37,659 bases of DNA from Bacteroidota bacterium. Its GTDB lineage: Bacteria > Bacteroidota > Bacteroidia > Bacteroidales > B39-G9. This document shows, one piece after another, positions 2,663 to 37,061 of this stretch (positions are counted from its first letter, which is position 1; each line of letters starts with the position of its first letter). The notes under the pieces are model-generated. The model was not told the DNA's origin, ran no database searches, and saw only the letters and a list, made by a program, of their open reading frames with translations. The position numbers and the translations under genes are program-made. The stretch lies in NCBI GenBank assembly GCA_015222055.1, contig JADFUR010000085.1, positions 1-37,659 of the forward strand. Reading direction: 5' to 3'.

Positions 2663-3577
2663 ATGTCTTTTAAACTATCTATACTAGGATGTAGCTCTGC
2701 TCTTCCTACTTCTAAAAGATTTTCTACCGCTCAAGTTATAAATATGCTTGAGCGGTTTTTTTTAATAGACTGTGGTGAGGGAACTCAAATACAGATGCGT
2801 AAATTTAAAATCCCTTTTGGGAAAATTAACAACATATTTATTAGTCATCTTCATGGAGATCATTTTTTTGGCTTATTAGGATTAATTTCAACCTTTAATC
2901 TTCTTAATAGAGAGAGTGATTTAAATATTTTTTGCCCAGCGGATTTAGAAAATATTTTAAATTGTCAATTTAATTATTTCGAAAACAATTTAAATTTTAA
3001 AATAATATATCATCCATTAAACTTCAATATTCCTGAAATTATTTATGAAGATAATAATCTCACAGTAAAATCTTTTCCTTTAAGACATAAAATACCAACT
3101 TGTGGATTTCTATTTGAGGAAAAACAAAAACCAAGAAATATAATTAAAGAGAAAATTCAGCATTTAAATATCCCAATAAAAGATATTGTTAAGATTAAAC
3201 AAGGTGAAGATTTTGTCGCAAATAATGGTGAAATATATAAAAACGAAGACTTAACATTTCCGCCATCCAAACCCCGTTCTTATGCATACTGTTCAGATAC
3301 AGCTTATTATGAAGATGTGATTCCTGTAATTAAAAATGTTGATTTGCTTTATCATGAAGCTACTTTTATGAATGATATGATAGAGAGGGCAAAACAAACT
3401 CTTCATTCAACGTCTGTAGATGCAGCTAAAATCGCAAAAAAAGCCGATGTTAAACAACTTATTATTGGGCATTTTTCTGCTCGCTATAAAAATATTGAAC
3501 CTCTTTTGAATGAAGCAAAAGAAATTTTTCCAAATACTATAGCCGCTGACGATGGAATGCTTGTTAGTGTAAAGTAG
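2663..3577 (+). CDS. rnz: Ribonuclease Z
   Basis: tRNA 3'-processing endonuclease of the metallo-beta-lactamase fold. The N-terminal LGCSSALPT segment, the zinc motif SHLHGDHFFGL (H62, H64, D66, H67), YCSDTAY, HEATF (about residue 230) and the C-terminal GHFSARY histidine motif appear in family order. The length of 304 aa is normal for the short bacterial RNase Z. The only tRNA gene in the window (21177-21250) has no encoded CCA, which fits a need for 3' trimming followed by CCA addition. It starts 15 bp after the STAS gene and is probably cotranscribed with it. Confidence 0.95.
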   Translation: MSFKLSILGCSSALPTSKRFSTAQVINMLERFFLIDCGEGTQIQMRKFKIPFGKINNIFISHLHGDHFFGLLGLISTFNLLNRESDLNIFCPADLENILNCQFNYFENNLNFKIIYHPLNFNIPEIIYEDNNLTVKSFPLRHKIPTCGFLFEEKQKPRNIIKEKIQHLNIPIKDIVKIKQGEDFVANNGEIYKNEDLTFPPSKPRSYAYCSDTAYYEDVIPVIKNVDLLYHEATFMNDMIERAKQTLHSTSVDAAKIAKKADVKQLIIGHFSARYKNIEPLLNEAKEIFPNTIAADDGMLVSVK

Positions 3578-35282: not shown

Positions 35283-35376
35283 CTGTTTCTGATTTAGTTA
35301 ATAATATCTTTTTTAATTTATTTTGCAGAATTTAGATTTTATTTCTGATACAATATAGTGTTTTTTTTAAAAAAGC

Positions 35377-35490
35377 AACATATTTATATAATTAAAATTG
35401 TTCATAATTGGATATGTGTTTATCAATTTTGTTGTTTAAATTAGCCATTGTAATTTGTTTTTGATTTTTAGTTTATTATTGATAAATTTA
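35377..35490 (+). repeat. Direct repeat, left copy, flanking the RAYT module
   Basis: Starts AACATATTTATATAATTAAA and ends in TGATAAATTTA. The same ordered blocks (AACATATTTnTATAATTAAAA, ACATAATT or CATAATT, TTGTTGTTTAAAT, TTTTGATTTTTAG, TTATTA.TGATAAATTTA) recur at 36902-37012. The first about 33 bp also recur at 36584-36616. Imperfect by substitutions and short indels. Confidence 0.75.
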
Positions 35491-35547
35491 TAGGAATAAT
35501 TTAAATAAGATTAAAAAAATAATTTGTAATTATTGCCATTATTAATT

Positions 35548-36087
35548 ATGATAAATAATCAGAAAAGAAAATTATTTCAAAATAAATATCGTATAGATAC
35601 CTGCCGGTTAAAAGGATGGGATTATTCTTCCAATGGTGCATATTATATTACCATTTGTGTTCAGAACAGACAATTGATATTTGGTGAAATAAAAGATAAA
35701 AAAATGATTTTAAATCATCGTGGCGATATTGTCAAAAAATGTTGGTTCGATTTACCAAACCATTATCCCAATTTAATATTGGATGCATTTGTTGTAATGC
35801 CAAACCATATTCATGGAATAATGATAATTGATAATACCGTATTTGAAAATAACGGTATTGTACAAACGGGTTTGAAACCCGTCTCAAAACACGGGATATT
35901 TGAATTTGTTCGTGCATTAAAAACATTTTCGTCACGTAGAATAAACGAAATTGATAAAACAAAAGGAAAAAAACAATGGCAATTACGTTTTTACGACCGT
36001 GTTATTCGCAACGATGCAGAAATGAAACGAATCCAAAATTATATTAATGATAACCCTGCAAATTGGGATAATGATAAATTTAAATAA
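35548..36087 (+). CDS. REP-associated tyrosine transposase (RAYT, Y1 HUH superfamily)
   Basis: 179 aa single-domain HUH transposase (IS200-like/Y1 family). Motifs: YRLKGWDY-like start (R20 LKGWDYSSNGAYYITICV), FVVMPNHIHGIMII with metal-binding H87 and H89, the helix FEFVRALKTFSSRRIN, and the catalytic tyrosine Y165 in NYINDNPANW. I start at ATG 35548; an in-frame TTG lies 15 bp upstream. The frame is intact, so it may be active. Residues 95-113 are encoded by two inverted repeats, the second of which equals the minus strand of the REP palindrome found twice downstream. Such proteins usually act on REP palindromes near their own gene, as seen here. Confidence 0.92.
   Translation: MINNQKRKLFQNKYRIDTCRLKGWDYSSNGAYYITICVQNRQLIFGEIKDKKMILNHRGDIVKKCWFDLPNHYPNLILDAFVVMPNHIHGIMIIDNTVFENNGIVQTGLKPVSKHGIFEFVRALKTFSSRRINEIDKTKGKKQWQLRFYDRVIRNDAEMKRIQNYINDNPANWDNDKFK
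35833..35885 (+). repeat. REP-like palindromes embedded in the RAYT coding region
   Basis: First hairpin AATACCGT (35833-35840) with ACGGTATT (35852-35859). Second hairpin ACGGGTTT-G-AAACCCGT (35866-35882). The 20 bp ACGGGTTTGAAACCCGTCTC (35866-35885) is identical to the minus strand of the REP core at 36272-36298 and 36665-36691. It encodes TGLKPVS (residues 107-113). Confidence 0.85.
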
Positions 36088-36258
36088 TTGGGGAATGTTG
36101 GTTGGATGATAATATTAACGGGAATTGAAACGTCGACGGGATTATAACGTTTGTGTTTTTAATGATGATGGGAAACGTTAACGTGAATTGTGATCAGGAT
36201 TGACGTTGTCGTTTATGAAAATGTTTACGGTGGTGGTTTCGGTTTGGTTTTTTTCGTA

Positions 36259-36312
36259 TTGTGTCGTGTCGTAGAGACGGGTTTCAAACCCGTCTCTACA
36301 TTGCCCGACAAA
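36259..36312. repeat. REP-like element, copy A
   Basis: 54 bp identical to 36652-36705. The core is a perfect palindrome with 13-bp arms, TAGAGACGGGTTT (36272-36284) and AAACCCGTCTCTA (36286-36298), around a single C. Flanking TGTCG on the left and CGACA on the right extend the pairing across an internal loop. Confidence 0.92.
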
Positions 36313-36583
36313 CCCGCAATACCACCCGCCAAAACCATGTACCATCGTCCGACAAAATCATCGTCGTCACCGCCAATCCCGATGCCATGAACATCACCGC
36401 CCAACCAAAAACCAACAACACCGATGCCAACGCAACACCTTCAAAACGCAACAAAAAAACATTTTTAATATCAAAAAAACGCAAACACCAAACCATCACC
36501 GCATTTATGCCTCTTTCCCGTATTTTTCGAATTAAAAAAAAACGGGAAAATAAATTAAAATTAAATGGTGATTTTTTTAAAAC

Positions 36584-36616
36584 AACATATTTATATAATT
36601 AAAATTATACATAATT
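36584..36616 (+). repeat. Direct repeat, short middle copy
   Basis: AACATATTTATATAATTAAA followed by ATTATACATAATT, matching the first part of the left (35377) and right (36902) copies. It marks the junction between REP units A and B. Confidence 0.75.
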
Positions 36617-36651
36617 GTTGTAATGTATTGGATTGTTTCGTATTTTTTGTT

Positions 36652-36705
36652 TTGTGTCGTGTCGTAGAGACGGGTTTCAAACCCGTCTCTACATTGCCCG
36701 ACAAA
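36652..36705. repeat. REP-like element, copy B
   Basis: Identical over 54 bp to copy A. Palindrome core at 36665-36691. Its CA-rich tail aligns with that of copy A but lacks a 44-bp stretch that in A lies between two CCGACAAA sequences. Confidence 0.92.
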
Positions 36706-36901
36706 ATCATCGTTGCCACCGCCGAACCAAAAATCACCGACCGATGCCAACGCAACACCATAAAATCCAACAAAACAAACATTTTCAATATCAAAAAAAC
36801 GCAAACACCAAACCATCATGCATTTATGCCTGTTTCCCGTATTTTTTGTATTAAAAAAAACGGGAAAAAAAATTAAAATTTAATTCCATTTTATTTCAAA
36901 A

Positions 36902-37012
36902 AACATATTTCTATAATTAAAAATATACATAATTCCATGTATATTTAGCAGCATTGTTGTTTAAATATTCTATTCGATTTGTTTGATTTTTAGATTATTA
37001 ATGATAAATTTA
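36902..37012 (+). repeat. Direct repeat, right copy
   Basis: Begins AACATATTTCTATAATTAAA and ends TGATAAATTTA. Aligns along its full length with 35377-35490 with substitutions and small indels. Together they bracket the RAYT gene and both REP units. Confidence 0.75.
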
Positions 37013-37061
37013 CTGGGAAAATATAAATTTTTATCAAAAGGTATTCTCTTTTGTTTAATTA

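Follow-up and report, generated by a model that had tools for sequence, protein, structure and literature searches.

In-frame REP insertions are predominant in the subclass 2.4 tnpA_REP genes (Bertels group 4), where they generally lie between the HuH and Y motifs, in a region modelled as peripheral; the REPs of this subclass are of the double-foot type, and it is abundant in Cyanobacteria and Bacteroidetes (Quentin et al., 2018; PMC6006769). GTAG REPs have also been described inside coding sequences of several gene categories, many of them concerned with DNA synthesis or repair (Di Nocera et al., 2013; PMC3733652); the repeats overlap the ends of tyrosine transposase genes, and the part of that report at hand describes none in mid-gene. 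The Rickettsia palindromic elements are likewise palindromic, inserted in genes and translated. One of them, RPE-1, is longer (PMC3733652). As to the foot itself, E. coli TnpA_REP tolerates no change of GTAG, a change to GTAC leaves binding by the S. maltophilia TnpA intact and abolishes cleavage, and Marinomonas TnpA_Mb still cuts GTAC substrates, at a shifted site (PMC8266576); in the part of this source at hand, none of the three enzymes is said to belong to subclass 2.4.

Because in-gene, in-frame REPs are reported for subclass 2.4 (PMC6006769), the core of our finding is already in print, and the window analyzed here (37,659 nt, one whole contig, JADFUR010000085.1, of the draft genome of a Bacteroidota bacterium, GCA_015222055.1) is a further, well-documented example of a published phenomenon and no new phenomenon. 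The window shares with that subclass an HUH-Y1 enzyme with NHxH and WQ motifs, double-foot GT[AG]G..C[TC]AC REPs beside the gene, and a REP in frame between HuH and Y, where the protein is peripheral and variable; it differs in that the in-gene copy is eroded and lacks a GTAG foot, in that the REP core is present at three copies in the draft genome, and in that the Y motif reads YINDNP and not YIxNNP (PMC6006769). The case is a compact one, in which a mobile DNA palindrome is translated as part of the gene presumed to move it, and with the comparative data given below a remark already in print becomes a question that can be tested: is an in-gene REP merely tolerated, or is it kept as DNA that links transposase and substrate? 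We know of no transposase gene that serves as host to a Rickettsia palindromic element.

The RAYT gene and its flanking REPs

Judged by profile and structure matches, the gene in the window is a RAYT, or TnpA_REP, of the HUH-Y1 kind (Table 1); an in-frame TTG lies upstream of its ATG, at 35533. The Pfam Y1_Tnp profile matches at 26.6 bits, above its cut-off of 23, and the NCBIfam REP_Tyr_transpos match (57.7 bits, E 1.2e-15) stays below the curated cut-off of 80, which is NCBI's naming threshold and no biological criterion. H87, H89, W144, Q145 and Y165 show no variation across 40 aligned sequences (the window protein and 39 relatives), and the NH[IFV]H and WQ features of subclass 2.4 are present, as NHIH at residues 86–89 and WQ at 144–145. 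The Y motif, YINDNP in the window RAYT, is YIxNNP in L011–L016, members of the same 7-row clade. In the AlphaFold2 model (mean pLDDT 89.2) the HUH motif lies on strand 87–94, followed by a short helix (97–101) and a further helix from residue 117; the mean pLDDT is 59 over residues 101–110 and 81 over 111–120, and TGLKPVS (residues 107–113) belongs to the segment between the HUH strand and the following helix, a segment modelled with low confidence at its start. Foldseek ranks 4er8_A, a REP-bound TnpA_REP, first among PDB structures for this model (prob 1.00, E 1.5e-07, TM 0.60/0.65); a sequence search of solved structures returned only 4er8_A (E 0.077) and cytosine deaminases (E 0.93–0.97). 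The window protein is thus like this E. coli-type TnpA_REP in fold, HUH and Y, but only 19% identical to it, and the E. coli REP stem is bulged (PMC8266576).

GTAG-footed REPs flank the gene on the downstream side only; none was found upstream of it. A diverged tandem duplication (36242–36312/36635–36705 at 94%; 36395–36616/36717–36934 at 87%) contains both REP A and REP B, and for that reason the pair may derive from one copy. DNA upstream of the gene, at 35361–35506, recurs downstream at 36565–36617 and 36889–37028 (77% over 146 columns, with a second, shorter copy at 87.5%), and the RAYT–REP block is bracketed by these direct repeats.

TABLE 1 Features of the RAYT locus in the window, and RAYT remnants elsewhere in the host genome
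Feature	Position	Strand	Basis or remark
RAYT (TnpA_REP, Y1 HUH transposase) gene, 179 aa from ATG	35548..36087	+	Profile and structure matches
HUH motif MPNHIHG, residues 84–90 (H87, H89)	35797..35817	+	Alignment of 40
First inverted repeat, ATACCGT / ACGGTAT, 7-bp arms, 11-nt loop	35834..35858	+	No REP sign
Eroded in-gene REP, 25/29 bases of GTAGAGACGGGTTTGAAACCCGTCTCTAC, read V-Q-T-G-L-K-P-V-S-K	35860..35888	+	Sequence comparison
Intact 17-bp core, ACGGGTTTGAAACCCGT	35866..35882	+	One of three copies found in genome
W144–Q145 codons, WQ motif	35977..35982	+	Invariant, alignment of 40
Codon of catalytic Y165 (YINDNP)	36040..36042	+	Invariant, alignment of 40; function by homology
Diverged tandem duplication carrying REP A and REP B	36242..36934	.	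Copies 94% and 87% identical
REP A, 29-bp double-foot palindrome, GTAGAGACGGGTTTCAAACCCGTCTCTAC	36271..36299	+	Both feet intact
REP B, same 29-mer as REP A, 393 bp further	36664..36692	+	Within duplicated DNA
Broken or truncated RAYT remnants L156, L157, L162, L163	C12:75251, C48:27681, C112:18709, C112:34951		

An eroded REP inside the RAYT gene

The first-pass annotation of this DNA had described two inverted repeats at 35833–35885, the second of which shares 20 bases with the minus strand of the flanking REPs and is translated as TGLKPVS, and the sequence is exactly so. The 20 bases of ACGGGTTTGAAACCCGTCTC (35866–35885) are identical to the minus strand of REP A, and the core that they contain, a perfect palindrome around one central base, sits between the HUH motif and Y165. 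Over its full length the in-gene copy differs from the intact form at 4 of 29 bases, every one in the outer stem. It has lost both GTAG feet and four outer pairs, reading GTAC on the plus strand and TTTT on the minus strand where GTAG is expected, and retains the 17-bp core intact; folded as DNA, the hairpin has an energy of −6.7 kcal/mol, against about −14 for REP A. With regard to subclass 2.4, then, REP A and REP B have the double-foot form and the in-gene copy fits in place and frame, its own feet being eroded. Since the GTAG feet and the four outer pairs are gone, cleavage of the in-gene copy is probably impaired; the GTAC on the plus strand leads to the guarded prediction that the copy may still be bound. 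Loss of cleavage is not certain, because one TnpA_REP, that of Marinomonas, still cut GTAC-footed substrates.

A search of the host genome for the palindrome, proposed in the first-pass annotation, found the core elsewhere, though just beside the RAYT gene: with at most one mismatch it occurs at three places in 3,752,272 bases, all of them in the RAYT locus (the reversed control pattern gave 0), and in a draft of 118 contigs collapsed REP copies are possible and this count may be low. A dispersed, high-copy REP family was not found in the draft genome, and we reject it for this host because the core lies at three places in one locus.

Palindromes in the linkers of close relatives

A scan of genome contigs gave six relatives, 51–63% identical to the window RAYT, which together with it form the 7-row clade (SH-aLRT 98, quick tree). 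In relatives the same linker, for which an alignment had also been suggested (residues 95–113), holds the palindrome once in some and twice in others, while others again have an unrelated palindrome or no palindrome at all. L011, L012, L015 and L016 carry a perfect 29-bp palindrome, its central base variable, in the same linker as the window gene and read VETG[FL]KPVST; L013 has two variants of it and L014 none. The linker of L013 reads ETGLRPVS twice, and two more copies lie just downstream of its gene (3134–3192 region). L012 (JAKIUY010000020.1) comes from a MAG labelled Victivallaceae, the other close relatives being in Bacteroidales or Bacteroidetes MAGs, and its placement reflects either horizontal transfer or misbinning.

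L014 and L016 are 92% identical in protein, and L016 is longer by 114 bp, which hold the REP and tandem spacer. The notion that TGLKPVS is kept by protein conservation alone, which the first-pass annotation had named as the result that would count against a REP, fails on this pair, since L014 lacks the peptide. A clean empty site with target junctions was not found, the L014/L016 pair giving no clean insertion junction, and as their difference includes the tandem spacer and cannot be polarised it may be an insertion or a deletion. Within the window clade, flank codons for the same residue agree at 51–69% (93% for L014/L016), while in the palindrome stretch 28–29 of 30 nt agree among L011, L012, L015 and L016, and the eroded window copy agrees with these four at 25 of 30 nt.

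A survey of linker palindromes

The window RAYT protein (P0001) had matches in 158 of 393 genomes of the same order (E ≤1e-10), and a linker-free consensus of the window clade had matches in 153 of 395 genomes drawn from the phylum (E ≤1e-15). From 155 loci, 105 distinct RAYT frames remained after motif patterns and an open-frame filter, four copies of the window locus being left out; the loci were chosen by similarity to the window protein or the clade consensus and are a partial subset of the matches, so that the sample is non-random, and the in-frame state of the element in all 105 RAYTs follows from the filter by construction. Hairpins scoring at least 10 were present in the linkers of 67 of the 105 RAYTs, against 1 of 105 in upstream coding sequence of equal length and 0.60 per 105 in codon-shuffled linkers; at a score of at least 8 the figures were 77, 4 and 3.6. 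The other 38, among them the window gene (score 8), have no linker hairpin at a score of at least 10, and such a hairpin is therefore not required. Among 69 linker hairpins scoring at least 10, a foot-like G[TC]AG[AG] was read in frame 0 (VET..) in 39, a count that includes at least one foot that is not a true one (L025), and in frame 1 (RD..) in 11; it was lacking in 19 and occurred in none of the 69 in the frame that would make TAG a stop.

The palindromes of 68 rows, window included, fall into 26 families. The 11 families with at least two members (53 rows) require 19 changes on a linker-free RAYT tree made by a quick method, whereas 200 shuffles averaged 35.9 and never fell below 31; on this tree, palindrome families follow RAYT clades. 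Presence or absence of a palindrome requires 27 changes, where shuffles average 30.7 and 31 of 500 reach a value this low: presence turns over fast and clusters only weakly. Moreover, the linker core recurs at ≥95% identity within ≤1.5 kb of its own gene in 16 of the 68 cases, where 0.6 would be expected from the flanks of other loci.

The pattern GTAGRGRC..GYCYCTAC was present in 39 of 46 genomes, a partly circular figure in that these are part of the genomes with a linker palindrome and were picked for it, and in 3 of 20 comparison genomes, the first on the list to lack a P0001 match. Reversed as a control, the pattern occurred in 1 of the 46 and 4 of the 20, so that in the latter group the forward pattern is at background. 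In 18 genomes enumerated in full (16 of the 46 and 2 of the 20) we found 72 double-foot palindromes, of which 24 lie in RAYT linkers with both halves of the gene found, 6 within 600 bp of a RAYT, 6 beside one half only and 36 elsewhere; once one palindrome is subtracted for each of the 16 RAYT genomes, 8 of 56 are in RAYT linkers.

Several comparisons bear on whether it is DNA or peptide that is alike. Three families have members in two reading frames, F01 with 13+1, F03 with 4+2 and F05 with 2+3, so that the same DNA yields different peptides. Across 137 same-family pairs, codons for the same residue agree at 91% inside the palindrome and 52% in the flanks, a comparison that is partly circular because families are defined by palindrome similarity; between nearest neighbours taken regardless of family the answer is mixed, the palindrome being more alike than the gene in 30 of 53 pairs below 90% protein identity. 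The cores of 54 nearest-neighbour pairs are ≥80% alike in 26 and ≤65% alike in 26, with 2 in between; to judge from these pairs, palindromes are kept or replaced whole and seldom drift. In family F01, 5 of 14 base pairs are changed on both arms (12 cells), against 3 one-sided cells.

RAYT copies and remnants in the host genome

A search of the host genome with a RAYT of the VETQNFASL type gave 11 matches, grouped into eight loci: the window, an intact copy on C35, one on C3, a fragment on C6, and broken or truncated copies on C12, on C48 and, twice, on C112. The palindrome GTAGAGACGCATAATTATGCGTCTCTAC is present in all four of these broken or truncated remnants, with one change in that of C48; a fifth copy, on C97, has no RAYT match. 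Compared pairwise, the remnants are identical at 27–28 of 28 positions of the palindrome, at 76–84% over the 60 bp upstream and at 67–76% over the 30 bp downstream, where the alignment is short and gappy. The protein matches at C12 and C112:18709 are weak (3.4e-4 and 8.2e-4) and rest partly on residues coded by the palindrome; linker-free queries miss both, and their upstream DNA nonetheless aligns at 76–84%. In the linker-free test three of the four remnants scored other than 'in linker' (two as other, one as N part only). The palindrome thus seems to outlast the reading frame in these remnants, and four sequences are too few to separate upkeep from recent spread followed by decay. Neither the survival of palindromes in RAYT pseudogenes nor the use of two frames within a single family is mentioned in the literature searched, supplements apart, and we claim no priority for either.

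The intact second RAYT of the host (L006, G000:C35:22267–22962, minus strand) has a different palindrome, of 36 bp, in its linker, followed by short tandem GRPIND/ERPIND repeats. The third RAYT (L005, G000:C3:70080–70519, minus strand) has an internal stop and has lost its linker, with the break at GTAGG; the loss looks as if a deletion had begun in a REP foot.

Probable origin and possible upkeep of the in-gene REP

Very probably, the in-gene element is a cognate REP, now eroded, that sits in a tolerant loop of a RAYT resembling subclass 2.4. By identity and position it is a double-foot REP of the RAYT's own family, set in frame within the variable loop between the HUH strand and the helix that follows, and it would be tolerated there as a DNA passenger with no conserved peptide, presumably without harm to the protein. 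It may have arrived in an ancestor common to the relatives named above, the RAYT transferring a cognate REP into the gene as a single strand; the window copy has decayed since then, keeping the core and losing the feet and four outer pairs, with REP A and REP B intact downstream. The suggestion of the first-pass annotation that a REP was inserted without loss of frame and turned into a loop of the protein has strong support, from the linker variation among relatives, from the conservation of DNA beyond that of protein and from the low-confidence stretch of the model. A chance palindrome is scarcely credible, and we reject it. Hairpins with 8-bp arms and a loop of ≤3 number one in the gene and arise likewise in 14% of dinucleotide shuffles, so that the hairpin by itself is just mildly unusual; chance is ruled out, however, because 20 bases are identical to the two flanking repeats, whose core occurs nowhere else in 3.75 Mb, and because perfect 29-bp copies occupy the same site in four relatives. 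Also highly improbable is that TGLKPVS serves as a functional protein loop, the palindrome being a by-product of its codons: the peptide is in frame in the window gene and in most of the clade, but the same position codes unrelated peptides from the 26 palindrome families, three families are read in two frames, synonymous bases are held, L014 lacks the peptide and the loop begins at low model confidence. Conservation as protein is rejected on these grounds.

Autoregulation, the other suggestion made for this gene, we regard as improbable. In this reading the RAYT would bind its hairpin in either the gene or the mRNA, and expression would be repressed or the gene itself cut. Strong linker hairpins are common (67/105 RAYTs) and often cognate to flanking repeats (16/68), the window hairpin still folds as DNA, and GTAC-footed REPs are still bound by the S. 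maltophilia TnpA and cut at shifted sites by Marinomonas TnpA_Mb (PMC8266576); on the other hand, the window copy has GTAG on neither strand, the RNA fold of the whole RAYT message is not unusual (z −1.43, 11 of 100 shuffles being as stable), and 38 of 105 RAYTs are without such a hairpin at a score of at least 10. Possibly, although we hold this tentatively, the linker palindrome is kept or refreshed as DNA, the RAYT gene being a lasting home of the REP, which is compatible with an eroded cognate REP in a tolerant loop. REP-for-REP exchange, gene conversion, palindrome repair by template switching, or selection as a RAYT substrate could each bring this about, and it is to these routes taken jointly that the same tentative standing applies. 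The near identity of the palindrome in the four remnants, whose flanks agree at 67–84%, the paired changes in F01, the bimodal likeness of nearest-neighbour cores and the share of double-foot palindromes found in RAYT linkers (24/72, or 8/56 after the subtraction) are all consistent with upkeep. Against it, the window copy is decaying and L014 has none, the remnants are few and two of their protein matches come partly from palindrome-coded residues, the downstream alignment is short and gappy, the broken copy on C3 has lost its linker, and a recent spread with later loss of the frame would leave much the same picture. That the linker of Bacteroidota RAYTs in general is no chance target but a lasting home in which REPs are kept or exchanged as DNA, whatever the protein does, and outlive the frame, the window showing a late, decaying stage, we consider unlikely; if true, it would mean that a RAYT carries its own substrate and that RAYT and cognate REP travel as one unit.

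Other inverted repeats and palindromes

The first inverted repeat in the window gene has no second copy in the genome when up to 3 mismatches are allowed. The gene has 5 pairs of perfect 7-bp arms with a loop of ≤12, two of them within the REP core (the shuffle mean is 1.84, and 70% of shuffles have at least one); as a DNA fold the repeat is better than most, 4 of 200 shuffles being as good. With a single genome occurrence and arms within reach of chance, it is rejected as a REP; it is not to be dismissed as nothing, yet its sequence has no sign of being one.

In another genome of the survey, a 906-aa frame (L212:850–3567, G039:C82) with N6_Mtase and two Methylase_S stretches, HsdM–HsdS-like, holds three double-foot palindromes in open frame (at 1520, 2218 and 2440) and is adjoined by a RAYT with a like linker REP.
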